64,000 bases of DNA from Ruegeria sp. TM1040 (GTDB lineage: Bacteria > Pseudomonadota > Alphaproteobacteria > Rhodobacterales > Rhodobacteraceae), in assembly GCF_000014065.1 (NCBI RefSeq), contig NC_008044.1:1387501-1451500 (forward strand), read 5' to 3'. A model generated the notes under the pieces. The model was given only the letters and a program-made list of their open reading frames with translations. It was not told the DNA's origin and made no database searches. Shown here one piece after another: positions 6,779 to 28,511 of the stretch. Position 1 is the first letter of the stretch. Each line of letters opens with the position of its first letter. The translations under genes were made by a program, and so were the position numbers.

Positions 6779-8731
6779 TCAATACCTGCGACGGCGTCGG
6801 CGCTTCTTCGCCCCCCAGCCAGTCTTTTTCGGAGCTTGGCTGTTTGGGGCTTCCGGTTCCTCTGGCGGTTTTACCAAAGCTCGCTCAGCGTCTGGTGAAA
6901 TCTCGACGGCCTCGTCCTCGGTCTCCTGCCCCTGAACATCCAGTGACGCGACCAGGCGTTTGATATTCGGGCGCAGGATGCGCAGCGCTGCGTAGGCATA
7001 GACGCGGCAGTCAAATGCTTCGTTGCGTGGGCGTACATTGTGCCATTCTCGGACTGCGAACCCCTTCACATACCGGGTGCGCAGCGCCTCGGCGGTGAAC
7101 ATATCGAACCACGCCGGATCCCGATCTGCCGGGAAATGGCAATGGCCCGGCCCCGCGTCGCTAATCCGCGCCCGCTGGGCGACTACGGCTTTCGCCTCAT
7201 CGACGCCGATGGAGTGCAAGTAGACGGGGCGCACGCCCTTTTGTTTGACCTTCGAGGGCTGCGTAACGATGGGTCTGCCCCAGCCACCGACGCCCTTGAT
7301 CGCCCAGACCTTGCGGCCCAAACGCTTGCGGGCATAGTCATAGGCTGCTTGCGTGCGCCCACCTTCACCCCCGGTATCGAGGCAGGCGGCAGAGACCCGC
7401 AACTCCGCTCCGCTCTCGTGCTCCCATGTTTCCGACAGCAAGGCGTCTAGTTCGTCCCAGACGTCCTGTTGCAGCGGATCGCCCCACAAAACCCGATAAT
7501 CGACAGACCAGGATTCCTCCCCCAAGCCCCAGCCAACTATTTCGACCTCGAGGCGGTCGTTTTGCATATCAATACCAGCCGTCAGGACGCCTGCCCCCAA
7601 CGGGACCGGTGCTGCGAACTTAGCAGCCCGTGCCATCAGCACGGACGCCTCGAGCTTGTCGCCTTCCTCTTCCCATGTCTCAGCGAGCGACACGTTCACA
7701 AAGGTTTGCAAATCCCCCGCGGCCTTTTTGTCGAGGAAGGACTGCACGATATCCTCGAGCCGCCGAAAGCAGGAATACAGCTCCGACAAATGATAGGACG
7801 CGTGACCTCGGAACGGCTTGCTGGCGATCCAGCCGCCGCCGTCGCGTTCGGCGTTGCGGATCGCTGCCACTCGCTCGCCATCGCTCCAAACGGTTCCGCA
7901 TCCCTCACCCACGCACAGATAGCCTGCTGTTTCGGCGAGGTGCAGCCCGTCGGCGTCTTTGGACCAGGTCACCTGCGACCAGTTCAGCCGTTGCAGGTGG
8001 CCGCAATGCGGACACCGCACGTAAAAATAGCGCTGGTCTCCTGCCTCAAAGGACTTTTCAATCCAGCTGCCGCCCTTGATCGTCGGCGTGCTGATTTCCA
8101 ACAAGAGCCGCTGATCACCAAAGGTCGCCGCCCGTTGCCACAGCAGGCCGACCGGGTGGCCTTCGTTTGTCCGGTCGTAGCCGTCGGTTTCATCGCAAAC
8201 AATGAACGGCGCCGAACGTCCGCGCATGGTCTTCGGAGAACCCGACCAACTGAACATGAGAAACCCGCCCGGGTAACTCTTCATGCGCTGATTATTGACG
8301 CCTTGGCGCCCGCGCGGCTTCGCGATCAGCTCGGCGAGGTCTTCGTTCTCTTCAACAAGCGGGTTGAATTTGGTCTCGAGCCACGTCGTCAAATCGCCTT
8401 GGCTCGGCTGCATCATCATCTGAGACACAGGATTGAAGCCGATGCGATAGGCCTGCGCCGCAAGCGCGGTCTGCGTCTTGCCGACCTGCGCGCCCCACAT
8501 GAGCGAGATCCGGTTGCACCGCGGATCTGCGGTCATATCGATCACTTCGCGCTGATAGGGCGCGTTGTCGAACCGCATTTTGCCCGGCACAGCGTTTCCG
8601 ACGGGGATCTTGATATTTTCCTCGGCCCACTCCGACGGCTTTAGGTTCGGCGGCGGGCGCAGAAATGCCCGGGCGCGCCGAGCAATGCGGACAACAGCCC
8701 GCGCATTCGAGAAATCAGCCCGGGCGTTCAC
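6779..8731 (-). CDS. Terminase large subunit, lambda GpA family
   Basis: The 650-residue DNA-packaging motor (lambda gpA is 641). The opening PPPNLKPSEWAEENIKIP and the following PGKMRFDNAPYQREVIDMTA are hallmark GpA sequences. The ATPase Walker A is GAQVGKT at residues 80-86, and the Walker B is FIVCDETDGYD. A zinc-ribbon-like CPHCGHLQRLNW with a second Cys pair follows, and the C-terminal half carries the nuclease region (CLDTGGEGGRTQ and a late FDCRVYAYAALRIL). It overlaps the small subunit by 4 bases. The Arg-rich last residues may aid DNA binding. Confidence 0.95.
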   Translation of the reverse strand: MNARADFSNARAVVRIARRARAFLRPPPNLKPSEWAEENIKIPVGNAVPGKMRFDNAPYQREVIDMTADPRCNRISLMWGAQVGKTQTALAAQAYRIGFNPVSQMMMQPSQGDLTTWLETKFNPLVEENEDLAELIAKPRGRQGVNNQRMKSYPGGFLMFSWSGSPKTMRGRSAPFIVCDETDGYDRTNEGHPVGLLWQRAATFGDQRLLLEISTPTIKGGSWIEKSFEAGDQRYFYVRCPHCGHLQRLNWSQVTWSKDADGLHLAETAGYLCVGEGCGTVWSDGERVAAIRNAERDGGGWIASKPFRGHASYHLSELYSCFRRLEDIVQSFLDKKAAGDLQTFVNVSLAETWEEEGDKLEASVLMARAAKFAAPVPLGAGVLTAGIDMQNDRLEVEIVGWGLGEESWSVDYRVLWGDPLQQDVWDELDALLSETWEHESGAELRVSAACLDTGGEGGRTQAAYDYARKRLGRKVWAIKGVGGWGRPIVTQPSKVKQKGVRPVYLHSIGVDEAKAVVAQRARISDAGPGHCHFPADRDPAWFDMFTAEALRTRYVKGFAVREWHNVRPRNEAFDCRVYAYAALRILRPNIKRLVASLDVQGQETEDEAVEISPDAERALVKPPEEPEAPNSQAPKKTGWGAKKRRRRRRY

Positions 8732-9282
8732 GCACTGTCGGCCCCCTCTTCGGCCTCTTCGTCGTCCTCGTCGAGATCCGCCTCGGTAATTAGGTCCGTA
8801 TCTGCCAGCGCCTCAAGCACCTGGTCGACCTCATCCAGCAAAACCGCCTTGATCTGCGTTTCATCGCTTTCACCGATCAGGCGCCGCGCTGCACGGCTGG
8901 GCAGGACGTTGCGGATACCCGCGCGCACCTCGCCAAAGGCTTTCGCAAGGGCGCGGTCGAACTGCTCCACCGGCACCAACTCTTCCTTGGCCCGCGCGAG
9001 ATCAAGCTCTGCTTGTTCCGTTTCCGCTGCGAGCTTGCGCAATGTCAGTTCGTCTTTGGTCGCCATTCCGGTGTGGCTCGCCTGCGCCCGGATATCATCA
9101 TCGCGCCAGCTCCGAACCTCAGCTGTGTTGAATTTCCAAGCCCGGCCGCGCCCGCCACGCTGAACCACCGGGCAGCCGCGCCGAACCCACTCATCGACGG
9201 TCGGCAGCGACACGCCGTTGATATTGGCGAGTTCGGCCCGGTTTACTTCCTGACCCTTGCTTTTCTTATTTTTCTCAGCCAC
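8728..9282 (-). CDS. Terminase small subunit, Nu1-like
   Basis: A 184-residue protein of the Nu1 family (lambda Nu1 is 181). An N-terminal winged-helix/MerR-like HTH is clear (NRAELANINGVSLPTVDEWV, then GCPVVQRGGRGRAWKF), followed by a helical ELTLRKLAAETEQAELDLAR oligomerisation/terminase-interaction segment and a very acidic C-terminus (DLDEDDEEAEEGADSA). It recognises the packaging site and loads the large subunit. It ends 4 bases inside the large-subunit gene. The untranslated stretch upstream (9283-9454) is where a cos-type site would be expected, but no such site can be proved by reading. Confidence 0.9.
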   Translation of the reverse strand: MAEKNKKSKGQEVNRAELANINGVSLPTVDEWVRRGCPVVQRGGRGRAWKFNTAEVRSWRDDDIRAQASHTGMATKDELTLRKLAAETEQAELDLARAKEELVPVEQFDRALAKAFGEVRAGIRNVLPSRAARRLIGESDETQIKAVLLDEVDQVLEALADTDLITEADLDEDDEEAEEGADSA

Positions 9283-9454
9283 TTGCGCCCCCTAGTGACG
9301 ATTTTCAAACCCTGCCCGGCAACGCGTGCATTTTTACCTCCCCAAACCGCTTTATTGAAATTCATCAGGGAGTTGCGCGATCTATATAATAAACAACCCC
9401 TTCGCCCGGCGGCACGCACACATAAATTTCGGCGCATAGGCACACCCACAGACG

Positions 9455-9838
9455 TCACCCCCCGGGGAAGGACCCGCGAAAAGGCCTGGCGATAATGCCG
9501 AACAGCGCTCCGCCCATCTGCTGCGGTGTTGGCAGCAGCCAGCCGACAAGGGCCACCAGAAGCAACCATGCAGGCGGATCTTCGCGAACGATCACCGTCT
9601 CGACGTTCTCACTCCTGACCCGCGTATCGCCTGCGCTCAGTTCTACGCTGCGCGCCTGCACGTCCTCGATCCTCTGATCGCTGAACGTCGCCTGCCCGAC
9701 GGTCTGGGCATTGTTACGGCCTGCCTGGACGTTCGCCGCCACGCTGGGCCCGCCACCCAGCGCCCCGCCGACGAGACCCGCAACCTTCGCGCAGGACGCC
9801 AAAGCCGCACAGATCAGCAGGAGAGGCAGCAGCGGCAT
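9455..9838 (-). CDS. Predicted unimolecular spanin (lipobox plus C-terminal membrane helix)
   Basis: A 127-residue lysis protein if started at the ATG at 9838, which overlaps the endolysin stop as ATGA. A start 7 codons further up is possible but gives a worse signal peptide. It has a lipoprotein signal with lipobox LASC (Cys16), a periplasmic Ala/Gln/Arg/Glu segment, and a hydrophobic helix at about 89-104 (PAWLLLVALVGWLLP) followed by a short basic tail. An outer-membrane lipid anchor plus an inner-membrane C-terminal helix is the architecture of one-piece spanins such as T1 gp11, which fuse the two host membranes in lysis. Position right after the endolysin supports this. The function is predicted from architecture only. 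Confidence 0.65.
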   Translation of the reverse strand: MPLLPLLLICAALASCAKVAGLVGGALGGGPSVAANVQAGRNNAQTVGQATFSDQRIEDVQARSVELSAGDTRVRSENVETVIVREDPPAWLLLVALVGWLLPTPQQMGGALFGIIARPFRGSFPGG

Positions 9839-10566
9839 CAGGTCAGCCCCTTGAGGCACAGCGTTCGCTTGCTATCGGCCCGGCGATTGGCTAGCCCGCG
9901 CACCCGTTTGCCACCCGCGATCACCCAGCGGCGCAGTTCATCGCACGCGGCCCGGTGCTTACCAGCGTTTGCAAGGCGCATCATCGTCGACCGACAAACC
10001 GGGCCAGACCCAACATTGTATGCAAGCTCTAGCATGGAGGCCTGAACACCTGCCGGAATATTCGGGTTCGTCATGCAAGGACGGATCTCGGAATAAAATG
10101 CACGCACATCTTTCTCGAGCCGGTCGACGCATTCAGCCATAGTCGCAGTGTCACCGATCTGAACGCCGTGAGTATCGCCGAAACAGATCGTCGGCACACC
10201 CACGATATCGCGGTAGGCCTCAAGCCGCACACCTTCCCACTTGGCCACAAATGGCGATGCTAGAGCAATCACAAGCGCACCAGCGCCGACGCCCTTTACA
10301 AACCTCGTACTGGCCGCACCCGATGTGTCTTGCCAGAACTCGGACAATAGCTTGGACAGGCCCACTTGTGCGATCAGGCGCGCAGGAATAGCCAATGCGT
10401 TCACCGCTGCGGCCAACCCGGCAAAGATAAGGGGGTCGACACGAAGCAATCCGGGCGACACCAGCGACACAAATATGGGGAAAGCCGAGATCAAGCACGC
10501 AAGCGCAATGAGACGGATAGACCATGCACCCTTGAGCGTTTCTTTCCAATTTTGAATGAGTTGCAT
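9838..10566 (-). CDS. Endolysin (GH24 lysozyme) fused to an N-terminal multi-helix membrane domain
   Basis: A 242-residue peptidoglycan hydrolase. Residues 105-242 are a T4/P21-type lysozyme whose catalytic triad reads E111, D120 and T126 (KWEGVRLEAYRDIVGVPT), exactly the 9 and 15 residue spacing of T4 E11-D20-T26. Residues 15-67 carry two hydrophobic segments (IRLIALACLISAFPIFVSLV; PLIFAGLAAAVNALAIPARL) resembling small holin-like phage proteins, and residues 91-108 form a weakly hydrophobic Gly/Ala-rich helix like a SAR domain. The usual stand-alone membrane protein therefore appears fused to the enzyme. The spanin gene follows in ATGA overlap. Confidence 0.88.
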   Translation of the reverse strand: MQLIQNWKETLKGAWSIRLIALACLISAFPIFVSLVSPGLLRVDPLIFAGLAAAVNALAIPARLIAQVGLSKLLSEFWQDTSGAASTRFVKGVGAGALVIALASPFVAKWEGVRLEAYRDIVGVPTICFGDTHGVQIGDTATMAECVDRLEKDVRAFYSEIRPCMTNPNIPAGVQASMLELAYNVGSGPVCRSTMMRLANAGKHRAACDELRRWVIAGGKRVRGLANRRADSKRTLCLKGLT

Positions 10567-10608
10567 TGCAAAGCTCTCCTTTCGCCCCAGAACAGGGCAT
10601 TGCCCCTG

Positions 10609-10845
10609 TTATCTACGGTGAAGGATCTCGCGGATCTCGCGAACGTCTTTACGGACCTCCGAAAAGGCCTCGCGATCCTCGTCGCGCTGCTTGTCACGCG
10701 CCTCGAGTGACTGCTGCAGCATTTCGATCTGTTTCTGATTGGTGAAGATCCTACGCACCAACCAAACACCGCCCGAAGCCGCTCCGGTGATCGCAGTCAC
10801 AAATAGCCCGGTGGATGCCTGTTCAATGCGTTCGATAAGCGACAT
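10609..10845 (-). CDS. Small membrane protein with coiled coil, possible holin or antiholin
   Basis: A 78-residue protein with one predicted transmembrane segment near the N-terminus (about 12-32, GLFVTAITGAASGGVWLVRR) and a charged coiled-coil tail (QKQIEMLQQSLEARDKQRDE). It is the first gene of the leftward lysis/packaging transcript and lies 42 bases before the endolysin fusion. Many phages keep a holin or pinholin in this slot, but the single helix and long cytoplasmic coiled coil do not identify a specific holin class. The lysis role is inferred from location. Confidence 0.55.
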   Translation of the reverse strand: MSLIERIEQASTGLFVTAITGAASGGVWLVRRIFTNQKQIEMLQQSLEARDKQRDEDREAFSEVRKDVREIREILHRR

Positions 10846-10957
10846 GCGCGCGACCCTCAGCCCGTTTTCGGCAAGGTCGCGCGTTTAGGGCGCGGGTTCC
10901 TCTGGCGGTTTTGCCATCAACACTTCTCGGCAGTCCTGTCAGTGAGTCCCGCCTGCA

Positions 10958-10985
10958 TTGACGCGATATCGGCTCACAATAGAAT
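10958..10985 (+). promoter_or_regulatory. Candidate sigma70-type promoter for the rightward cargo genes
   Basis: A TTGACG -35 element at 10958-10963 is separated by 16 bases from TAGAAT at 10980-10985, about 100 bases upstream of the gene at 11093 and pointing at it. The surrounding 10986-11090 is markedly AT-rich compared with the phage structural genes. This is the only obvious promoter in the 247-base divergent gap between the leftward lysis genes and the rightward cargo pair. Confidence 0.45.
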
Positions 10986-11092
10986 TTGCTTCTAAACAAT
11001 AATAGCGTGGAGTTTGGAGGTTTTATTCCCTAACATAAAACTCCCCAATAGAATGTCGCAACCGGTGTGATTGGTGTGAATGAGGATTTCGT

Positions 11093-11695
11093 GTGAGCAA
11101 AGAGATTATTAATATAAGTAACTTAGCATCCGTTGACGAAACAGAGCTAGTCCTCGTGCAGAGTATGGTTGCTGAGCTATTCGGTGAACCGCATCAACTT
11201 GTAAATCTTCAGGGAGCTTATTTCGGGCCTCGTCGATATCCACACACGGTCTATCTATCTGAGGCGGATCGATTTTGTGTGGCGATTTTAATTCCTAGTC
11301 ACCAAGCTGATAAGCTTGCTTTCCGCGTCGCGCATCTCTCGCACGAACTAGTACACTGCTTGAACCCTAATGGATGGCCCTCCAAGGCGACAATACTCGA
11401 AGAAGGGCTCGCAGAGCACGCGAAAGTCTATATATCGCGTGTGATGTACGAGGGCTTTCCTCAACTCGGTGCTAACATACAGACGTATGGTGCATACCAA
11501 GAAGCATTTGATCGGATCGAGGATCTAATCAAATACGAAGGTCTTAAAGGTTTTTATAGTGGAATTAGAAAACTGAGAGAAGACACATGCCGTCCGTTCG
11601 CGGAGATCAAAGCAGAAGATTTGAAGAAGGTGTTCTTGAACACACCTGTCGAACTCTTGGAACTTCTAAGTCAGCCATTTCGCGAGTTAGATTAG
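11093..11695 (+). CDS. Putative zinc metalloprotease-like cargo protein (HExxH)
   Basis: A 200-residue protein starting at a GTG preceded by GAGGA. It has an HELVH zinc-binding motif at residues 84-88 and an EEGLAEH segment at 103-109. The latter resembles the NEGLA-type third-ligand glutamate of HExxH-plus-Glu metallopeptidases. No signal peptide or membrane helix is visible, so it is probably cytoplasmic. The gene is AT-rich and points opposite to the flanking phage operons, as expected of lysogenic cargo (a moron). The gene at 11740 follows on the same strand. Protease activity is predicted from the motif; the family could not be named. Confidence 0.6.
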   Translation: MSKEIINISNLASVDETELVLVQSMVAELFGEPHQLVNLQGAYFGPRRYPHTVYLSEADRFCVAILIPSHQADKLAFRVAHLSHELVHCLNPNGWPSKATILEEGLAEHAKVYISRVMYEGFPQLGANIQTYGAYQEAFDRIEDLIKYEGLKGFYSGIRKLREDTCRPFAEIKAEDLKKVFLNTPVELLELLSQPFRELD

Positions 11696-11739
11696 TCTCC
11701 TTTATCCCCGCCCCGGTTCTGCTGATGTGAGAATAAAAA

Positions 11740-12093
11740 ATGAAGCGTGACGACGACTACATTAGAAGAATGTTGTTAGCTTTAGAGCTCGCTGACGACC
11801 CCTACCTTGCAGCCAGTCAAGAGACCAACAGCATGTCTGCAAGCGAGGTGAAGAAAAACTATCATATCGCTCTTTTGTGTGATGCTGGTTTCATGAAACG
11901 TCACTCTGAAACACGTTTTCGAATGACAAACCAAGGGCACGATTATGTTTTATCCATCGAAGACGATGGCGTTTGGGATCAAACCAAGAAGAGTGCTGCC
12001 CAGGTTGGGGGTGTTGCTCTTGGCCTGATGAAAGATATAGCGCTTGGCTATGTAAAGCAGAAGTTAGTTGGGCTAGGGATACCTGTTGAGTAG
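11740..12093 (+). CDS. DUF2513-like protein
   Basis: A 117-residue protein beginning MKRDDDYIRRMLLALE, the typical opening of the DUF2513 family. It continues through a winged-helix-like region (YHIALLCDAGFM, then RFRMTNQGHDYVLSI). DUF2513 proteins are small, common in phages and mobile elements, and without established function. Here the C-terminal 30 residues (QVGGVALGLMKDIALGYVKQ) form an amphipathic or weakly hydrophobic helix. It lies 44 bases after the metalloprotease-like gene, has the same low GC, and may share its transcript. Confidence 0.65.
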   Translation: MKRDDDYIRRMLLALELADDPYLAASQETNSMSASEVKKNYHIALLCDAGFMKRHSETRFRMTNQGHDYVLSIEDDGVWDQTKKSAAQVGGVALGLMKDIALGYVKQKLVGLGIPVE

Positions 12094-12174
12094 GGACTAA
12101 ACGGCCCCCAAAGTCTGGGATACAAATCTGGTTTCAGTTAGAGAAATCATAAAAGAGTACAGGCACTACCGCCT

Positions 12175-12723
12175 TCAACTGCAGTTTACTCGCGATGTGA
12201 TGCTGCTCCCACGTTCTAGGTCAATGAACTCGAAGCGACAGCTCTCGTTGCCAAACTCGATATCGATATGTTGGCCGATTGTCGGCCAAGCATTGACTTC
12301 AGCGGGCGCGCCATCGACCTGTACGAACATCGCACTCCCGGAGTTCGTATCCTCGAAAACTAGAAGGCGGCTGACACCATTAGGAGCGATAAAGTCGTAA
12401 GCTACGTTTTGCTCAAAGGTTCTAAGCCCTTGGAAGCTACGTGGCACAAAGGGAAGCTGATCGTTGTCACCTGTTGTAATCGTTCGTGCGATTTGCGTTT
12501 CCAGTGACTGAAGCCGTTGCTTGAGTGCCTCGCTTTCATCTTCCGTCAACGCTAGGCTCAGTCCGTCAAGTGCGGATGAAAGACTTCCAACACTTTCGAT
12601 CAAGTCGGGTGGGGATTCGATTGCAAGCTTACCCGGATAGAAAAGAGAATACGCTCCAATACTTGCTGCTACAGCTGTTCCGACACCACCCAAAAAAGAG
12701 CCGAAGTTTTTAATACGCGACAT
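12175..12723 (-). CDS. Membrane-anchored phage cargo protein, unknown
   Basis: A 182-residue protein with an N-terminal membrane anchor (GSFLGGVGTAVAASIGAYSL), a short helical region (ALDGLSLALTEDESEALKQR) and a C-terminal beta-rich domain ending in SSITSRVNCS. It converges with the DUF2513 gene and has similar low GC, so it belongs to the same cargo patch. The topology (anchor in the inner membrane, soluble domain probably outside) would suit a superinfection-exclusion or envelope-modifying protein. That is a guess from topology; no family is recognised. Confidence 0.5.
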   Translation of the reverse strand: MSRIKNFGSFLGGVGTAVAASIGAYSLFYPGKLAIESPPDLIESVGSLSSALDGLSLALTEDESEALKQRLQSLETQIARTITTGDNDQLPFVPRSFQGLRTFEQNVAYDFIAPNGVSRLLVFEDTNSGSAMFVQVDGAPAEVNAWPTIGQHIDIEFGNESCRFEFIDLERGSSITSRVNCS

Positions 12724-12905
12724 ACGGAGCTCCTAGAAAATACGAAAAGGCCGACTTATCAAGTTTTTCAATCTTTGATGTACGCAAAAACCAACTCACG
12801 CAGGCTCGCACGTCCACCACAGTGCCGATCTCAATGCCTTCTGTAAAGTACCAGATAGGGCTCGAACTCGCTGCAGTCCAAGGCGAATAGTGCTTGTTTT
12901 GATAG

Positions 12906-13466
12906 CTACCCTAGCCTCTTGCGCCAGTACTCGCCCTGATCTAACAGCCCCTGCGCGGTCTTGATCTCGACGCCCATTTCTTGCGCGATCTCGGCAATGG
13001 ATGCGCCTGCGTCCCACTGGCGCAACGCATGGTCAGCCATGTACGCCTTGCGAAGCCCGTGGCAGCTCGGAAGCTCGAGGATACAGTTCGCATGGCTGTG
13101 ACTGAGCTTTTGCGCCGCCTCGATGCCGATCATGGTGGCGATCCGGTGGTCCTCGGGGATGCTGCCCGGGACGTAAAGCTGTCGCCGCCATTTCCGCGCG
13201 CCTGTCGCCCGGGTGCCCTCTACCAGACGCACCGCATTGCGCCGGCCGATTACCTCCGCGATCTCCTGGACGCTCTCGGGCAGCGGCACGTTGCGGCCCC
13301 GGCCTGCGGCAAACTCCGCCAGCGGATAGCGCACGACTGCGGGTAGATCGGGCTGATAGAGCGCAGGAACCGAGGCCGAGGCTTTGCGCTGCCCGGAGCG
13401 CTGCGCCTGATCGAGCAGTTTGCGCAGGTTCGCCACCTCGTGTTTCAGGTCCTCGACTACGCCCAT
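12906..13466 (-). CDS. Mor-like transcriptional regulator
   Basis: A 186-residue protein. A short coiled coil (LKHEVANLRKLLDQAQ) is followed by two units that resemble the Mor/C activator fold: IAEVIGRRNAVRLVEG with RRQLYVPGSIPEDHR, then IGIEAAQKLSHSH with CILELPSCHGLRK. A C-terminal helix-turn-helix follows (WDAGASIAEIAQEMGVEIKT). Mor-family proteins activate middle/late phage promoters in Mu-like phages. It is the last gene of the leftward early block, a typical site for a late-gene activator. Similarity is by pattern only. Confidence 0.55.
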   Translation of the reverse strand: MGVVEDLKHEVANLRKLLDQAQRSGQRKASASVPALYQPDLPAVVRYPLAEFAAGRGRNVPLPESVQEIAEVIGRRNAVRLVEGTRATGARKWRRQLYVPGSIPEDHRIATMIGIEAAQKLSHSHANCILELPSCHGLRKAYMADHALRQWDAGASIAEIAQEMGVEIKTAQGLLDQGEYWRKRLG

Positions 13467-18216: not shown

Positions 18217-18225
18217 GCCCCTTAA

Positions 18226-18301
18226 TGGGGTTTATTTACCCCATCGGTCAAGGGTCATTTTACGCCATGCGCGACGCTCAACAATGGGGTAATTTACCCC
18301 T
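18226..18301. promoter_or_regulatory. Operator cluster of the CI-like repressor (three sites)
   Basis: Two clear palindromes lie between the divergent Cro-like and CI-like genes: TGGGGTTTATTTACCCCA at 18226-18243 and TGGGGTAATTTACCCCT at 18285-18301. A weaker copy on the opposite strand (18251-18266, 12 of 16 positions matching GGGGTAATATTACCCC) lies between them. The same palindrome recurs twice at 25171-25216. A three-site cluster between divergent regulators resembles the right operator of lambda. The rightmost site ends one base before the repressor ATG, so it could also set autorepression. Confidence 0.75.
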
Positions 18302-18302
18302 C

Positions 18303-18938
18303 ATGCAACAGACTTTTCGGGACGCATTTCTTGCGGCTATCAAAACCACCGGCAAATCTATGCGACAGGTCGCTCTGGACGCAGGCGTTTCCTATGAGCA
18401 ACTCAAAAATCTTTCGCAGGGCAAGAGTAAGTCGACAAACGTTGACGATGCCATCCGCATAGCTGCATCTTTCGGGACCAACCTCGAAAACTTCTTGGAA
18501 GGGAATACCGCACCCTCTGTGCGCCCGACTATCTCGATCGCGGGCACAGTTGGCGCGGGGGCGCAGGTTCCGGTGTTCGATGCCTACCCGAAAGGCGGTG
18601 GCCCGCAGGTGGAGTGCCCTCCGGGCCTGTCTCCGCATGGCATCGTTGCTGTTGAGGTTGAGGGAGACAGTATGGAGCCCGTTTATTCGGACAGGGACTT
18701 GTTGTTTTACAGCCGAAACGGTCACGACAGCGTTCCATCGGACATCATCGGGCATCGCTGTGTCTGCGAAGACGAGGACGGCATGGGGTGGGTCAAACAA
18801 GTAAAGGCCGGGGACGAACCCGGCCTATTTCATCTTATTTCATTGAATCCCGGCGCGAACAACATCTGGAACGTGCGTCTGAAGTGGGCGGCTCGGGTCC
18901 AACTGCACTGGCCAGCCGACTTGGCGAAAAAGGCATGA
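18303..18938 (+). CDS. CI-like repressor with S24/LexA-type C-terminal domain
   Basis: A 211-residue protein from the ATG at 18303; the frame is open earlier, but that would run through the operators. The N-terminal XRE-type HTH reads MRQVALDAGVSYEQLKNLSQ. The C-terminal S24 peptidase-like domain has the nucleophile Ser in GDSMEP and the Lys in GWVKQVK, 42 residues on, with a hinge Ala-Gly (SIAGTVGAGAQ) as candidate cleavage site. This is the layout of RecA-triggered autocleaving repressors, so the prophage is probably SOS-inducible. It should bind the GGGGT...ACCCC operators on both arms. Confidence 0.88.
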   Translation: MQQTFRDAFLAAIKTTGKSMRQVALDAGVSYEQLKNLSQGKSKSTNVDDAIRIAASFGTNLENFLEGNTAPSVRPTISIAGTVGAGAQVPVFDAYPKGGGPQVECPPGLSPHGIVAVEVEGDSMEPVYSDRDLLFYSRNGHDSVPSDIIGHRCVCEDEDGMGWVKQVKAGDEPGLFHLISLNPGANNIWNVRLKWAARVQLHWPADLAKKA

Positions 18939-19298: not shown

Positions 19299-20216
19299 TC
19301 ATTCGCCTGGGCGCCTTACATTCTCGAACTCAGGCGCACCATCAAAACTCGGCGATGCAGATTCGCCAGGGCGCAGGATAGTTGAGCAGTCGAACCGAAG
19401 TTCGGCTGGCACATCTGCACTCAGATCGCGGCACGAAGTCACGTCAGGACCACCTGCCAAAATATCCCAAAACTCCGCTGGCGAATAGCCACAGGCAGGA
19501 ACTTCCGCTTCAGGCTCACCCGATAGCAGCTCCGACATCTCGCGGGTATCTGCTAGGGTTAAGCAGGCATCGCGCACCTCCATGAAGGTAACACCGACAA
19601 TCGCGGCGACGCCGACATATGGCACCGCTTCGATCGCCATTGAGGACGTATTAGTGGAGATCATTCGCGAAGTTCGTCGAGCAAGCCGTTCGTTGATCGC
19701 ACTGACACGCTCGCGAAGTGGTCCATCAAGCTCCTCGACTTGAATTTCGAGATTAGCAAGCCGACGACTAAGGCGAACGCGTTCGGCGGTGAGTTCCGCG
19801 GTTTCGCTGGACAAGTTTGTTAGCTCCCGCCGAGCGCGTCTAAGATTTTGATCGAGCTCCGCCTTCTCGTCCGCGAGACGGGCAGCACGCCGATTCAACG
19901 TCTCATTGTCAGCACTGAGTTCGACCACTTCGTTTCGTGCGCGCCGCAACTCGGCATCAAGCCGCTGCGCCTCGGCCTCGAACACTTCAGTCTGCGCAGT
20001 CAGTCTGACCACGGCTTCGCGGTTTCCGCGATGAGTTGTCGGGGTGCCGACATCTGCCACAACGCTGGCTAAACTCCAGAGACCTCGTTTTGTGGCGTCG
20101 TAAACTGCGTCAGCGGTCAGCAAAAGGATATTGCTGCCGAGGATCAACACTACGAAAACAAGTAAGAAAGCGGTACGCCTGAGAACGCGAAGAACGAAGC
20201 TTACTATCCGTCGCAT
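19299..20216 (-). CDS. Inner-membrane protein with long coiled coil, unknown cargo
   Basis: A 305-residue protein. One membrane segment lies near the N-terminus (TAFLLVFVVLILGSNILLLT, about residues 15-35). A coiled coil follows at about 70-190 (heptads rich in Arg, Glu, Leu, for example LRRARNEVVELSADNETLNR). A weakly hydrophobic patch (VPYVGVAAIVGVTFMEV) and a Cys-containing C-terminal region (PACGYSPAEFWDILAGGPDV; DVTSCRDLS) complete it. It lies 6 bases after the ankyrin gene on the same strand, so the two are almost certainly co-expressed. It is not a known phage structural protein. The Cys pairs suggest the C-terminal part is outside the cytoplasm. Confidence 0.6.
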   Translation of the reverse strand: MRRIVSFVLRVLRRTAFLLVFVVLILGSNILLLTADAVYDATKRGLWSLASVVADVGTPTTHRGNREAVVRLTAQTEVFEAEAQRLDAELRRARNEVVELSADNETLNRRAARLADEKAELDQNLRRARRELTNLSSETAELTAERVRLSRRLANLEIQVEELDGPLRERVSAINERLARRTSRMISTNTSSMAIEAVPYVGVAAIVGVTFMEVRDACLTLADTREMSELLSGEPEAEVPACGYSPAEFWDILAGGPDVTSCRDLSADVPAELRFDCSTILRPGESASPSFDGAPEFENVRRPGE

Positions 20217-20222
20217 ATTGTC

Positions 20223-21215
20223 TCAATTCCCTTCGACGCAGATCTCATGAAACCGGAGATCTAGCGCATGGTCCCCGGCGATAGCCTCATTCACTTTAAG
20301 CAACTCGCGTGCGGTACGCTCCTTTGTGTCTGCGGCGCACGGGTCGTCCATAGCTTCGAGGAGGCTCGCCACAGTTTCCGGTTTGGATGAGTAACGAGCA
20401 GCGAGATGCAGAGGTGTCTGACCTTCATTGTTAGTCGCGTTGGCATCTACTCCCTTTTCAAGGAGAAAACGGATCACGCCACTCGGCCGGTCCCAGCCCG
20501 CCGCAACATGCAGCGCATTGTTGTCATCGTTTGAAACAACACTCAGGTCCCCTCCACCGGCCGCGAAGGCAGTCAGGACCCGCAGGTCCTCGGCATGACG
20601 GCTCGCGACCAGGAAAGCAGGCCAATAGTATTTGTCTGCATTCGACTCGATCGGGCGAGCTATCGACGGATCAGCACCACCTGCCATTAGTGCCGAGACA
20701 ACATCCGCGCTGTTGGGGCGCATTACGGCTAAGTGGAGTGGCGTAATTCCGTAGTCCGAGGACAAGGGATTCCACCGATTTTCGACCGCATACCTCGCAT
20801 TTGGATCCGCACCCCAAGCCAAAAGCCAGCGGACGGTTTCGGCGGTTTCACCAGTCTCGGTAGCAATGTGCAGTGCCGTGCGCCCGGCATTATCCAAGCG
20901 GTCTCGTAAGTTCTGCCAGCCCTCCTCGCCTGCGGCTCGACGTATTGCATCAAGCACGAGGTGGTTCTTCTCTGTTTCGACGGCTAAATGCAAAACGGTA
21001 GCGAGTTCGGAGTTTCGTCCATTCAGAAACTCATCACTCTCCGATCCTTCCAGGCAGGCGATCAGCGTTTCGCTGTTACTCTCTCTCACAAATTCAGCAT
21101 CGACTTCGCAGGCGGATGCACTGGCTGAAAAAGCACAGGATAAAAATAGGCCCAAGTATGTTTTCTGCACAGCTGCACTTTCCCAGGAATTTATCACAAC
21201 GGCACAATTAGACAT
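20223..21215 (-). CDS. Secreted ankyrin-repeat protein, cargo
   Basis: A 330-residue protein with a hydrophobic N-terminal signal (TYLGLFLSCAFSASASACEV) and five or more ankyrin-type repeats: GRTALHIATETGETAETVRW with LLAWGADPNA, GITPLHLAVMRPNSADVVSA with LMAGGADPS, NNALHVAAGWDRPSGVIRFL with LEKGVDANA, and GQTPLHLAARYSSKPETVAS. Ankyrin repeats bind other proteins. With the signal it probably works in the periplasm or outside the cell. It is cotranscribed with the coiled-coil membrane protein that follows, a possible partner. It is not needed for a phage particle, so it is likely lysogenic-conversion cargo. Confidence 0.8.
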   Translation of the reverse strand: MSNCAVVINSWESAAVQKTYLGLFLSCAFSASASACEVDAEFVRESNSETLIACLEGSESDEFLNGRNSELATVLHLAVETEKNHLVLDAIRRAAGEEGWQNLRDRLDNAGRTALHIATETGETAETVRWLLAWGADPNARYAVENRWNPLSSDYGITPLHLAVMRPNSADVVSALMAGGADPSIARPIESNADKYYWPAFLVASRHAEDLRVLTAFAAGGGDLSVVSNDDNNALHVAAGWDRPSGVIRFLLEKGVDANATNNEGQTPLHLAARYSSKPETVASLLEAMDDPCAADTKERTARELLKVNEAIAGDHALDLRFHEICVEGN

Positions 21216-22389: not shown

Positions 22390-24798
22390 TCAGAGTTCGG
22401 CCTCAGAGCCTGCTGCGCGACGTTCGAAGCGACTGATCATAGCCGTAATATCTGGGTCGCCGAGTCGGCCTTCCGCAGCCTTCAACTCATCCATAGAGGC
22501 ATCGAAAAAGCTGTATGACCCGGTTCGACGAAGATACTCCAAACCTAGCTCTGCATATGCGGACAGAATACTCTTATTGTTCGGAAACCTGGCGATACCC
22601 GTCGAAGCAAGTTCTTGGGCTTGCTCAAGAATAACAATTCTATCCTCATCGAGCAAACCAGGCGCACGAGCTGCTCGAGCAACCATCAACTTAATTTTAT
22701 AGCGATGGACGGGGCCGTCTGAGCCGAAGTCAAAGTTGAAGACGCGAATCTCCGTTTCCGCTTTCTCAAACTCACCTTGGTCGATGAGGTTCCTGATCAG
22801 CCGATGTCGCGGAACCCTCTCGCCTGGGGCCATGGATATCATTCGCCTCAATAGACGATTCTGCTCTTTCTTTTCGGGAATTCGTGAAATTCCGCCGTCG
22901 AGATTGCAAAGCTCGCGCAGGGTTCTAACCTCAATATCGTAGGACGGAGAAATGTTATCTATGACGTGATCAAGGAGGGATATTATCTGTTCGAGATCCC
23001 CAAATTTGTATCTAGTGACAATTTCTGAAATGACACCATGCCTGCACTTCCACCCATATATTCCTTTGCGTCGATCAACCGGATATTCTTCGACGATATC
23101 ATCCAAGGAAGTCAAAATATTTGAGATATTGCTCGCTTCAACGTTAAGCATGCGAACGGCAAGTTGGCGGTGGACGCGTACTCCGAGTGTCTCCATAGCT
23201 GCGACGTGTTTATAAATGTCCTGAGGGATGGCGTCCAAGCCAGCAAATTCTCGAAGGATGATATCGTCGAACGACTCAGACGCAAAAATGTTCTTCAGAC
23301 AAACAAACATGTCTGCTTCGCATCTATGCACCAACCGCCTTCTGCGCTCGCCTTTGTTGAATCCGCTAAAAGACTCCTCGACAAGCTCACGGATGCGCGG
23401 CTGTCGTTCAATTAAATTCAAGAGCCGGTCGATCTCATCTACAGACAGTTTTGAAAGCCAAAAATCCTTCCCACAACGATTGAAGTTTGGTGTTTTGCTT
23501 CGAGGTATCCAATTGCTTTTTGTTGAAACAGCAAGAATTTTCAGGTGCGGATTGTCATCTGCGACAAGCAGGTCCATCAGCTCATTAAGTTGGTGCAAAT
23601 GAGAATGTGCTTCGTCTACAAGCAGGACACCTAAGAGCTCACTTTCCTTGAGGTTTCCGGCAATCTTTCTCCAGTTGGCGACGCTAAGAGTATGTTCATT
23701 CACATGCTCCCAGGCCCTGAAGCCTGCGCGGCGGAGGAGTTGTAATGTCTGTCTGGCAGCGGTTGACTTGCCTACTCCGGCAGCCCCTAGAATAACCCCA
23801 GAAAGGGTACAAGGATCTTCAAAGTGTTTAGCAACCTCACGTGAGATATCGCGTTCGAATGTTAGGCCCGCTTCGACCTCTCGGTGAGTTGCAGGCCAGC
23901 CGTTGAACATCGAACTGACGTCGGCTTCGGCTCCATTGGAAACTTCCGACACTTCGACAATAGAGTTTGATATATGCGTGCCGATTAGCGCCTCGTCGTC
24001 TTTCGAAATCATGACGGGTGCGATCTTTGGCGGTCTTTTGTCGAGTCGCGTGAAGAACTCGTCAATTCCGCCGAAGACTACACGCAACCCTTTGCGTTCT
24101 TGAAGGAGCGCACGACTTTGGTTTTCAGAGTAGATCAGAAGTGTGATCTGACCAGGGGATAGCGCTTTTTCATTGATCTTTACAGCCCGCCTCACCAGAG
24201 TATCCATGTCTGGATCGGACAGTGATTGCCCAATTATCACAAGATCGGCACCTGCCAGATCGCCGCGCATCCGATCATAAAGCTGTTCTCGAAACTCTTC
24301 AGTATGATCGTAGTCATCCACAGTCAGGATAATTCTGCTATGATGGCCGGTTGAAATATCTTTTTCAATTGTCCCATGAATCTTAAATAGCTCGCAATCG
24401 TATTCTTCCTCATCTATATGGAAGTCAAAGTTAGAAGAATATACTCGACACCTCTTTTTGGCACTATCGAACGATTGTTCTACGAGAGTGTCATAGTTTG
24501 TAGTATAGATACTCTTCCACCTCCAGCGAGGGATTTTCATGAGTCCACCCTTCGGCTTCACATGTGGGAAAAATTTGCGCAAGTCATTAATGACCTGCCG
24601 ACGGCTTGACTTTTTTTCGGCCAAGAAGGTGATTTCGGACAGCTCAAGATCTTTTTCCAGGCTGTACTTTTCGGAGTAATGACTGATCAGTGAATCAACG
24701 CCTGGAGCCCCCGACGGGATTGATGCGCCTGCACCAAACAGAAGCACAGTTTTTTCAGGATCCACTTGGCCAATAAATTCATCCATTGAAACCGGCAA
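22390..24798 (-). CDS. SIR2-STAND protein, probable antiphage NADase with P-loop NTPase
   Basis: An 802-residue three-part protein. The N-terminal SIR2-like NAD-binding domain has LLFGAGASIPSGAP (residues 19-32), TTNYDTL with N101 and D103, and the catalytic His141 in FKIHGTI. A P-loop NTPase follows, with Walker A GAAGVGKST (338-346) and Walker B LLVDEAH (392-398), in the manner of STAND ATPases. The C-terminal 350 residues are helical and repeat-like, a sensor region in such proteins. SIR2-STAND proteins are known antiphage systems that destroy NAD on sensing a phage component. Here it is prophage cargo of lower GC than the phage genes. A defence role is inferred; the motifs are seen directly. 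Confidence 0.85.
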   Translation of the reverse strand: MPVSMDEFIGQVDPEKTVLLFGAGASIPSGAPGVDSLISHYSEKYSLEKDLELSEITFLAEKKSSRRQVINDLRKFFPHVKPKGGLMKIPRWRWKSIYTTNYDTLVEQSFDSAKKRCRVYSSNFDFHIDEEEYDCELFKIHGTIEKDISTGHHSRIILTVDDYDHTEEFREQLYDRMRGDLAGADLVIIGQSLSDPDMDTLVRRAVKINEKALSPGQITLLIYSENQSRALLQERKGLRVVFGGIDEFFTRLDKRPPKIAPVMISKDDEALIGTHISNSIVEVSEVSNGAEADVSSMFNGWPATHREVEAGLTFERDISREVAKHFEDPCTLSGVILGAAGVGKSTAARQTLQLLRRAGFRAWEHVNEHTLSVANWRKIAGNLKESELLGVLLVDEAHSHLHQLNELMDLLVADDNPHLKILAVSTKSNWIPRSKTPNFNRCGKDFWLSKLSVDEIDRLLNLIERQPRIRELVEESFSGFNKGERRRRLVHRCEADMFVCLKNIFASESFDDIILREFAGLDAIPQDIYKHVAAMETLGVRVHRQLAVRMLNVEASNISNILTSLDDIVEEYPVDRRKGIYGWKCRHGVISEIVTRYKFGDLEQIISLLDHVIDNISPSYDIEVRTLRELCNLDGGISRIPEKKEQNRLLRRMISMAPGERVPRHRLIRNLIDQGEFEKAETEIRVFNFDFGSDGPVHRYKIKLMVARAARAPGLLDEDRIVILEQAQELASTGIARFPNNKSILSAYAELGLEYLRRTGSYSFFDASMDELKAAEGRLGDPDITAMISRFERRAAGSEAEL

Positions 24799-26050: not shown

Positions 26051-26192
26051 AACCTGCCTCTGACCAACTGGCAGGGGTGATCGCACCCCTGCCCTTTTCT
26101 CACACCCTGCGGATAGTGCCGCAGCGCCCGGGGCCACGTCCACCACTCACGCGAACCAAAGCGCCCCGGGCAAAATTCCAAAGGTGATCCAA

Positions 26193-26879
26193 ATGGCAAA
26201 GATACTGATCGGTTGTGAAACCAGCGGCATCGCCCGGCGCGCCTTTGAGGCCCTCGGCCATGACGTCTGGTCTTGCGACATTGAGGCCGCAGAGGATGGC
26301 TCCAACCGCCATATCCGCTGCGACATTCGCGACGGTATACTTGACGAGGGCTGGGATCTTTTGACCGTGATGCACCCGCCTTGCACACGCTTGTGTCGTT
26401 CCGGCCGTCGCTGGATGAGTGGCCCCGGCAAGTGGACCCGCCCCCGTCAACTCCCAAAGGGGAAGACCTGGCAAGACATGCGCGACGACTTTGAGGAAGG
26501 CGTCAGTATTTTTACTGCTTGCTGGCGCGCTCCGATTGATCGGGTCGCTATCGAAAACCCGGTGATGAACGACCTCGCCAAAGATCGAATGCCCGCAGAT
26601 TTGCCAGCACCGCACCTTGTGCAACCGTTCTGGTTTGGTGAGCCGACCTATAAAGCGACAGGATGGTATCTGCGCGGCCTTTCACCCTTGGTCGAGACCA
26701 ACCGGCTCAAGGAGCCGGAACGCGGATCCGATGAGTGGAAGAAATGGAACCGTATTCATCGGATGTCGCCCAGCGCGGAGCGCACCCGACTGCGCAGCCG
26801 ATCCTTCCCCGGAATGATGGAAGCCGCCGCTCTGCAATGGGGCGACCAAGCATCAAAGCAATATGCCGCCGCGGCTTAA
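26193..26879 (+). CDS. C5-cytosine-methyltransferase-like phage protein
   Basis: A 228-residue protein from the ATG at 26193 (an ATG three codons earlier is also open; AAAGGTGA precedes). It shows the order of C5-methyltransferase motifs: a nucleotide-binding N-terminus ILIGCETSGIARRAFEALGH, an acidic motif II-like WSCDIEAAE, DIRD, the catalytic-loop-like MHPPCTRLC with a PPC cysteine, and VAIENP in place of ENV. It is too short to hold a normal target-recognition domain and motifs IX-X. It may be a minimal methyltransferase or a relative acting on nucleotides. Chemistry is inferred. Confidence 0.6.
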   Translation: MAKILIGCETSGIARRAFEALGHDVWSCDIEAAEDGSNRHIRCDIRDGILDEGWDLLTVMHPPCTRLCRSGRRWMSGPGKWTRPRQLPKGKTWQDMRDDFEEGVSIFTACWRAPIDRVAIENPVMNDLAKDRMPADLPAPHLVQPFWFGEPTYKATGWYLRGLSPLVETNRLKEPERGSDEWKKWNRIHRMSPSAERTRLRSRSFPGMMEAAALQWGDQASKQYAAAA

Positions 26880-26906: not shown

Positions 26907-27086
26907 ATGAATGCTCATACTGAAATCAAATCCGATCACGCGATTGAGTCTTTGACGGTTGGTATTGGCGCCCAATGCACTTCCCGCGCTGCTTTCTTGG
27001 ATCAGATCGAAGAGGCGGAGCAATACCGCGCGGATCCGAAATTCGCACCAAACGAAGGGAAGCTCTCGGTGCTGCGCACGGAATAG
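26907..27086 (+). CDS. Short phage protein (59 aa), unknown
   Basis: A short open frame starting at the ATG at 26907 after AAGGCCTAAAG and ending TAG at 27084-27086. The product (MNAHTEIKSDHAIESLTVGI, then a helical AAFLDQIEEAEQYRADPKFA) is acidic and helical. It fills the otherwise empty gap between the methyltransferase-like and excisionase genes, with a fair ribosome site, so it is probably translated. No function can be proposed. Confidence 0.5.
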   Translation: MNAHTEIKSDHAIESLTVGIGAQCTSRAAFLDQIEEAEQYRADPKFAPNEGKLSVLRTE

Positions 27087-27132
27087 TGCCCGTACATCAA
27101 ATAGAGCAGACCGACCGTTTAAGGACTCCCCC

Positions 27133-27336
27133 ATGGGACGAATCGCACAGATAGCAGTTGCCGAACGCACAGCGGCAAAGATGATGGACATGGCTCCGTC
27201 AGACTTTCGCCGATTGGTGCAGGCCGGATCTCTCCCCTCTCCAGTTCGTATCTCTGGCTTTGAGCGCTGGCGGGTGTCCGACCTTGAGTCAGTTTTGAAC
27301 GGCAACGCTATGAGCGAAGATGAGTTCACATGGTAA
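27133..27336 (+). CDS. Excisionase/AlpA-like HTH protein
   Basis: A 67-residue protein from the ATG at 27133, with AAGGA upstream. It has the MerR-like winged-helix layout of AlpA/Xis proteins: AAKMMDMAPSDFRRLVQAGS, then LPSPVRISGFERWRVSDLES. Such proteins bend DNA at attachment sites and direct the integrase toward excision. The stop overlaps the integrase start by 7 bases, the usual xis-int arrangement. Earlier open codons belong to the neighbouring 59-residue gene's region in another frame and are not used. Confidence 0.75.
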   Translation: MGRIAQIAVAERTAAKMMDMAPSDFRRLVQAGSLPSPVRISGFERWRVSDLESVLNGNAMSEDEFTW

Positions 27337-28331
27337 AGAAGTTGGAGCGAAAGTATGTGACGACCAAGACCGTCAAGGGTCGTGTCTACTATTATTTTCG
27401 GCGCGGAGAGACGTATCAGCGTCTTCCAAATGACCCTGACAGCCAAGAATTTGATGATGCTTATTGGGCCATCCGATCAGGGCGCGCGAAAAAAAAGGCC
27501 AAAACGACATTCGAGGCCCTGATTGTCAGCTACTACCAGACGCCAGAGTTCAGAGATCGAAAGCCCAGAGTGCAGCAAGAGTACAGACGCACGCTTGAGC
27601 TGATCAGAGAAAAGAACGGCCCCAAGGATTTCACCAAGCTGCGCAGGCGCGACGTTATTGCCGCTCGCGATGCGTATGCCGATACATGGCGTAAAGCAAA
27701 TGCAATGGTCGAGATGATTTCCATCCTATCGCGTCACGCCATCGATCTTGAATGGATTACAGCAAATCCAGCAAGCGGGGTGAAGAAGCTGACGGGGGGT
27801 GAATATGAGCCTTGGCCTGACGCCAAGCTGCAAGCCTTCGAGGCATTTTGCAAGAAACATGATCTCGAATGGGAATTGACTGCCTACATGCTGGGTGTGG
27901 GAACCGGTCAGAGAATCGGTGACGTGGTAGGTATGGAGTGGGCGCACTATGACGGCCAGTTCATCGCTGTCGTTCAAGAGAAGACAGCAGCGCGTTTGTG
28001 GGTAGCTTGTCCTACGTTCTTGAAGCGATACCTCGACGGCTTGCCGCGTAGAGGGCGCTTCATCATCGCGCAGTCACTGCACAAAGGAGTCGCGAAGCGG
28101 ACTATTCAGCAGCGCGTCATGGCCGTGCGCGAGAAAATCGGTGCTGTTGGCTATGTAATTCACGGATGGCGATACACCGCTGCGGTCCACCTGGCAGAGG
28201 CCGGTGCGAGCGATAGCGAGATCCAAGCTGTGACCGGTCACAAGACGCTTGAGATGGTCAAGAAATATCGAAGTCAAGCCAATCAGAAGCGCCTTTCAAA
28301 GTCCGCACAAGCGCGACGGACCAGAACATGA
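27330..28331 (+). CDS. Tyrosine-family site-specific integrase
   Basis: A 333-residue phage integrase. An N-terminal arm-binding region (VKGRVYYYFRRGETYQRLP) and a core-binding helical domain precede the catalytic domain, with R195 (GTGQRIGD), K218 (VQEKTAA), H278 and R281 (IHGWRYTA), H304 (VTGHKTLE) and nucleophile Y313 (MVKKYRSQ) all present. It should integrate and, with the upstream Xis-like protein, excise the prophage. It ends 95 bases from tRNA-Leu, the likely attachment gene. The catalytic set is complete, so it appears functional. Confidence 0.95.
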   Translation: MVKKLERKYVTTKTVKGRVYYYFRRGETYQRLPNDPDSQEFDDAYWAIRSGRAKKKAKTTFEALIVSYYQTPEFRDRKPRVQQEYRRTLELIREKNGPKDFTKLRRRDVIAARDAYADTWRKANAMVEMISILSRHAIDLEWITANPASGVKKLTGGEYEPWPDAKLQAFEAFCKKHDLEWELTAYMLGVGTGQRIGDVVGMEWAHYDGQFIAVVQEKTAARLWVACPTFLKRYLDGLPRRGRFIIAQSLHKGVAKRTIQQRVMAVREKIGAVGYVIHGWRYTAAVHLAEAGASDSEIQAVTGHKTLEMVKKYRSQANQKRLSKSAQARRTRT

Positions 28332-28426
28332 ACAGAACGAGAAAGCGGGAAACTAAATGGGAAACTCGACAAACGCCGCAAAAGTTGGCTTTCCCTAGGG
28401 TCTAGATTTTTTGTTTGGAAACAATG

Positions 28427-28511
28427 TGGTGCGGGTGAAGGGACTTGAACCCCCACGCCTTGCGGCGCCAGAACCTAAATCTGGTGCGTCTACCAATTCC
28501 GCCACACCCGC
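28427..28511 (-). tRNA. tRNA-Leu (anticodon UAG), likely prophage attachment gene
   Basis: On the minus strand an 85-base cloverleaf: acceptor GCGGGTG (28505-28511) pairs with CACCCGC, the anticodon stem-loop CCAGATTTAGGTTCTGG gives TAG, a long class II variable arm follows, then the T-loop GGTTCAAGTCC. CCA is encoded at the 3' end (28427-28429). The 3' end faces the integrase gene, as expected if the phage attachment core overlaps the tRNA 3' part and restores it on integration. Confidence 0.93.

Follow-up and report, generated by a model that had tools for sequence, protein, structure and literature searches.

The 64,000-nucleotide stretch of Ruegeria sp. TM1040 analysed here (the window; contig NC_008044.1, positions 1,387,501 to 1,451,500) carries within a prophage, at 22390..24798 on the minus strand, a gene whose 802-residue product joins a SIR2-like domain to a STAND NTPase. 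The frame, which was assigned from the list of open reading frames (ORFs), Pfam matches and the starts of homologues, runs for 802 codons without interruption from a TTG. Because an equivalent candidate start codon is present in 15 of the 17 aligned proteins (alignment A2, described below), this TTG is likely to be the correct start; for five loci (L002, L015, L017, L018 and L029) the frame extends further upstream, and we placed the start at the codon equivalent to the TTG. Residues are numbered on the 802-residue protein throughout, i.e., four higher than the Pfam coordinates, which begin at the second methionine (798-numbering).

Domains and predicted fold of the SIR2-STAND protein

The SIR2-like domain (residues 5-250; 24049..24786, minus strand) is supported by Pfam (SIR2_2, 6e-22, 78.7 bits against a cut-off of 24.5), fold match and alignment, and contains the motif GAGAS (residues 22-26) along with N101, D103 and H141. 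Beyond a variable linker (residues 251-297; 23908..24048, minus strand) lies a P-loop domain (residues 298-450; 23449..23907, minus strand) that matches nSTAND_NTPase5 (PF25199; 1.5e-10, 41.5 bits, cut-off 34), with its Walker A motif GAAGVGKS at residues 338-345 (including K344; 23764..23787, minus strand) and its Walker B motif LLVDEAH at residues 392-398 (23605..23625, minus strand), both placed by alignment. The SIR2-STAND architecture proposed in the original prediction, which was made from the sequence alone, is thus borne out by two scores above cut-off, and every residue that it named (GAGAS, N101, D103, H141, K344 and VDEAH) is present. N101, H141, K344 and D395 are each invariant in the 17 aligned proteins, D103 is kept in 16 (L029 has E), position 396 of the Walker B motif is E in seven and D in ten, and H398 occurs in 16. 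N101 and H141 line up with residues that were mutated in the solved KomC/KomBC structures (9v12, 9xvc). The nSTAND3 profile (PF20720) falls below its cut-off in the 802-residue protein (12.7 bits, E 0.1, cut-off 27.2), and since its matches to the relatives L023 and L024 are likewise sub-threshold, the nSTAND3 and nSTAND5 subtypes look related. An NCBIfam search of the protein gave sub-threshold matches only.

The whole predicted model has as its best Foldseek match EfAvs5 (9jap; 1.8e-20), a solved antiphage NADase, so that the predicted fold agrees over its whole length with solved SIR2-STAND antiphage NADases. Residues 451-600 (22999..23448, minus strand) are predicted to form a helical region and, by our reading of the predicted elements, a winged helix; residues 601-802 (22393..22998, minus strand) are predicted to form TPR-like helical repeats, the presumed sensor. 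The protein therefore appears to possess the C-terminal helical repeats of the SIR2-STAND class. The original prediction had described the C-terminal sensor as unrecognisable, a description that no longer holds: fold prediction and a structure search of the C-terminus show a winged helix followed by TPR-like repeats, an arrangement like that of Avs5 and SAMD9 with human SAMD9 nearest, although Pfam TPR_19 reached only 0.0058 and the repeats are read from the predicted fold. Since the C-terminus is recognisable, the argument that an unrecognisable sensor implies a new trigger is invalid.

As predicted, the gene is lower in G+C content (48.2%) than the prophage (57.7%), and also than the host flank (58.9%). 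The further proposal that it is expressed from its own promoter region was not upheld: on the minus strand, the sequence upstream of the start as far as 25300 has no promoter-like match, and across 3.4 kb five such matches were seen where 3.3 were expected.

The prophage and its cargo slot

Genes assigned by PHROGs to terminase, portal, head, endolysin, replication, CI repressor and integrase functions accompany the SIR2-STAND gene. A repeat search located an exact 57-bp copy of the 3' part of a tRNA-Leu gene at 28426..28482 (the right attachment copy, which is part of an intact tRNA-Leu at 28427..28511, minus strand, the integration site) and a second copy that begins 39,427 bp to its left, at 11,002 bp ahead of window base 1. 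Because these repeats enclose the gene, it lies inside a 39.4-kb prophage (39,427 bp); the earlier claim that it is prophage cargo therefore stands, now with exact boundaries. A relative, G016, matches the tRNA-Leu and the right flank at 77%, and the left flank is unmatched beyond the tRNA copy in 19 loci (L165-L183). Other genes of the element include the terminase large subunit (6779..8731, minus strand; PHROGs), a tyrosine integrase (27330..28331, plus strand; PHROGs and Pfam) and, beside it, a possible excisionase (26959..27336, plus strand) with HTH_17 just at E 0.081.

The gene sits in a slot anchored on the left by a CI-type repressor with a helix-turn-helix and an S24 peptidase domain (18225..18938, plus strand; PHROGs and Pfam) and on the right by a conserved phage gene of 231 residues without a Pfam match (26184..26879, plus strand). 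These anchors are 7.2 kb apart here and 1.1-9.2 kb apart in the 12 related viral loci that have both (L085 was excluded as lying on the same contig as L109). We compared 65 related loci (13 found by integrase, 47 by repressor and 5 from genomes), and the SIR2 gene of the window occurs in none of them over the stretches compared. The slot is therefore variable, given both its differing spacing and the absence of this gene from the related loci. The right-anchor protein is present in 16 of the 65 loci, frequently near the integrase. The slot also holds a coiled-coil protein whose N-terminal part includes a hydrophobic stretch (19299-20216, minus strand) and an ankyrin-repeat protein (20223-21215, minus strand). 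A second low-G+C patch of the prophage (45-50%; window 11001-13000), possibly more cargo, contains two ORFs without a Pfam match (11093-11695, plus strand; 12175-12723, minus strand).

A compact clade with a conserved presumed sensor

One scan of the genome_contigs collection returned 19 loci, and viral_contigs yielded one full-length relative and twelve distant ones. The non-redundant family loci number 21 (the window, L002 and L012-L030; L031 duplicates L002). Alignment A2 comprises the 17 whose proteins are unbroken and full-length or nearly so, the window included; L013 and L030 were excluded because contig ends truncate them, L026 and L027 because their frames are broken, and L016 was retained despite a frame that begins about 18 residues late. 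The breaks in L026 and L027, both from metagenome-assembled genomes (MAGs), fall near residues 590-610 and may be sequencing errors or real losses. The aligned proteins are 44-86% identical to the window protein, the nearest coming from Sedimentitalea nanhaiensis (86%), while a cut copy in Shimia aestuarii reaches 88%; further members are found in Mesorhizobium, Devosia, Bradyrhizobium, Methylobacterium and MAGs, among them some labelled Burkholderiales, Salinisphaera and Fimbriimonadaceae, labels that may be binning errors. The window protein thus belongs to a compact SIR2-nSTAND5 clade, chiefly from alphaproteobacteria.

The distribution of this protein is sparse. Among 293 relative genomes seven have any match, and only the window's own genome has a full-length one; among 398 genomes of the phylum there are four matches at 1e-20, two of them full-length, again counting its own. 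Twelve records of the plasmid collection match (two over 90% of the query), and the phages collection gave no match. One plasmid relative, in a Pseudomonas record (L003:12013-14178), is annotated as a pair of neighbouring ORFs, by appearance a gene that has been interrupted, beside a tyrosine recombinase. PF25199 itself matches 296 of 299 phylum genomes at a loose limit, as it does 14 of 14 controls, and at its curated cut-off passes in 14 of the 299 and in none of the controls. In the open-access literature searched, none of the titles listed concerns the compact clade, and neither 'nSTAND5' nor 'PF25199' is mentioned.

Three longer siblings (L032 and L033 on viral contigs; L004 on a Psychrobacter plasmid) encode proteins of 1035-1063 residues with the organisation SIR2-nSTAND5-TPR, in which SIR2 and nSTAND5 lie far above cut-off and in the same order as in the window. 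Their profile aligns with that of A2 over columns 10-768 of 831 (hhalign probability 100, E 2e-44), and the tree separates them from the window clade with 100/100 support. The L033 protein (9980-13087, plus strand) ends in a cold-shock/OB (oligonucleotide-binding) domain (9.5e-9). In the L004 protein (7836-10979, plus strand) the match is weak (1.2e-4), and in L032 the search returned no such domain. The order SIR2-STAND-TPR-OB is that described for the core of SAMD9 after AlbA (PMC5445408), such that L033, and L004 weakly, reproduces the SAMD9 core minus AlbA, a likeness in order and fold that need not mean family membership. The window protein is about 10% identical to SAMD9 (9zjs, 9zjw) and differs from it in starting at SIR2, with no Pfam match to the AlbA or SAM domains up to E 1, and in lacking, as does L002, a cold-shock domain match corresponding to the C-terminal OB fold.

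If the C-terminal repeats were a sensor like that described for PaAvs5 homologues, whose C-terminus is poorly conserved (PMC12931631), they would be expected to be the more variable part of the protein. Instead, conservation in the window clade is inverted relative to Avs5, the presumed sensor being as conserved as SIR2 or more so. Mean pairwise identity in A2 falls from 0.52 in SIR2 (5-250) to 0.30 in the linker (251-297), stands at 0.48 in the NTPase (298-450), rises to 0.65 in residues 451-520 and is 0.57 in both 521-600 and 601-797; within the last of these it is 0.70 over 640-700 but just 0.49 over 701-797. Identity exceeds that of SIR2 in 108 of 136 pairs for 601-797 and in 129 of 136 for 451-797, pairs that are not independent of one another. 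Tested by column, the excess is modest both for 601-797 (p = 0.023) and for 451-797 (p = 0.004); over 640-700, which was picked after inspection, it is clear (p = 1.4e-5). Between the window gene and L012, the proportion of differences is 0.81 at synonymous sites (pS), which are saturated, and 0.08 at nonsynonymous sites (pN), with pN of 0.098 in SIR2, 0.033 in 601-802 and 0.007 in 640-700. The gene is under purifying selection, and this saturated pS beside a low pN, together with bit scores above cut-offs, shows that the observation exceeds chance. The longer siblings, three sequences only, have the opposite order (SIR2 0.39-0.49, C-terminus 0.22-0.36).

Such inverted conservation suggests that the C-terminus is constrained by an invariant trigger or by an internal switch, and it is a better argument for a new trigger than the alleged unrecognisability of the sensor. 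The strongly conserved block at residues 613-700 (22699..22962, minus strand), delimited by alignment, pN and the column test, is a candidate for constraint special to the compact clade. Residues 481-520 (23239-23358, minus strand) are also among the most conserved stretches, yet part of them is modelled at low confidence (pLDDT, the per-residue confidence, is below 50 for 494-508 in one model and low for 498-505 in another), as if their structure relied on a partner or on another state; because this stretch aligns with the siblings and is partly of low confidence, it is perhaps a general STAND element. For Avs5, a few fixed residues where the repeats begin were interpreted as a pivot (PMC12931631, section 13), a reading that could by analogy hold for the window clade and that competes with an invariant ligand.

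The window protein shares with Avs5 (EfAvs5, PaAvs5) an N-terminal SIR2_2 domain with GAGxS and TTNxD, a central STAND NTPase, C-terminal helical repeats and the three-domain fold overall, for which Avs5 is the best whole-length match. It differs in its NTPase subtype (nSTAND5, with nSTAND3 sub-threshold, whereas nSTAND3 is described for PaAvs5) and in having a conserved C-terminus where that of Avs5 is variable, and on both counts it falls outside Avs5 sensu stricto. ThsA of Thoeris, KomC and DSR2 likewise have a SIR2 NADase domain. DSR2 is not known to have a STAND NTPase, and KomC supplies SIR2 as a separate subunit; the full-length Dsr2 profile fails on the window protein (13.3 bits, cut-off 1400). 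The HG motif is found in 17 of 17 proteins of the window clade, whereas Avs5 has NG about as often as HG (PMC12931631). ThsA has a SLOG domain and acts with ThsB (PMC11204291), whereas in the window protein the PADLOC match to ThsA is limited to residues 2-200, SLOG gives no match, and the family loci have no conserved partner. SIR2-bearing STAND proteins were previously noted in a phage-satellite hotspot (PMC9122126).

Probable antiphage function and its alternatives

The observation underlying the original prediction is confirmed, and its interpretation is partly supported. We consider it probable that the gene, a piece of lysogen cargo, encodes a standalone, Avs5-like SIR2-STAND immune protein that works as an NADase in abortive infection, where oligomerisation, NAD hydrolysis and a phage trigger are what we infer. 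While the lysogen is at rest, the NTP-binding domain would be kept closed by the TPR-like C-terminus together with the winged helix; a ligand from an infecting phage, bound by the C-terminal repeats, would open the protein, and NTP bound at K344 would then permit oligomerisation (Avs5 forms filaments, according to PMC12700824, which quotes another paper). The packed SIR2 domains would hydrolyse NAD+ via N101 and H141, and the loss of NAD+ would stall or kill the cell before new phage can be produced, which would protect both the population and the resident prophage.

Several results weigh against this antiphage function. The pTM (predicted template modelling score) of the whole model is just 0.42, and identity to EfAvs5 is 13-14%. 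PADLOC matches fall on the SIR2 part, best to ThsA, the remainder being weak P-loop matches (PDC-S01 and SspF), and no PADLOC system model spans the protein. No neighbour is common to more than 5 of the 21 family loci, and the Pfam families of neighbours, among the matches listed, are mainly metabolic or regulatory. Slot contents in related prophages are mixed, defence genes not predominating; of two large slot proteins there, that of L133 has no PDB relative and that of L129 is an alkylsulfatase.

An alternative, which we regard as unlikely, is that the protein serves the prophage itself as a self-protection device or lysogeny switch, triggered by the state of the host or resident prophage (e.g., repressor loss or damage) and not by an infecting phage, with NAD cleavage stopping rival prophages or killing cells that lose the element. 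The gene does occupy the slot beside the CI repressor, in L002 it lies close to a gene read from its sequence as repressor-like, and a C-terminus that is constrained and not diversifying fits a constant, possibly host-encoded signal; however, relatives also occur elsewhere, adjoining type I restriction genes and on a plasmid, and the family loci have no conserved antitoxin-like partner gene. Somewhat less probable still is that the SIR2 domain modifies proteins in an NAD-dependent manner, or signals by ADP-ribose, rather than depleting bulk NAD: its motifs are common to sirtuins generally, and the fold also matches the Plasmodium Sir2A deacylase, albeit at a lower Z (15.4). That the gene has decayed or lost its function and is cargo left to drift in the prophage might be read from its patchy occurrence (two of the 398 phylum genomes, its own among them, have it at full length) and from the plasmid relative annotated as two main ORFs, but the open frame of 802 codons, the retained catalytic residues and the low pN against saturated pS make this very improbable, the pattern of selection having largely refuted it.

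SIR2-STAND proteins are an already known kind; the novelty lies in the clade itself, in how compact it is and in the conservation of its presumed sensor. A tentative extension of the immune-protein interpretation, to which we give limited credence, is that a near-fixed surface of the C-terminus lets the compact clade sense an invariant signal, either a feature common to all phages or some state of the host, and that, with its cold-shock/OB-tailed mobile siblings, it represents a bacterial SAMD9-like lineage on phages and plasmids. The block at 613-700, the residues N101, H141, K344 and D395 and the exactly bounded lysogen make the interpretation directly testable. STAND immune receptors are expected to vary the part that faces the virus. 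A family whose presumed sensor stays near-fixed, in alphaproteobacteria and in some genomes further afield, would be a sign either of a trigger that is hard for phages to change or of an unrecognised switch element. The clade and its siblings also enlarge the bacterial side of the comparison with SAMD9.
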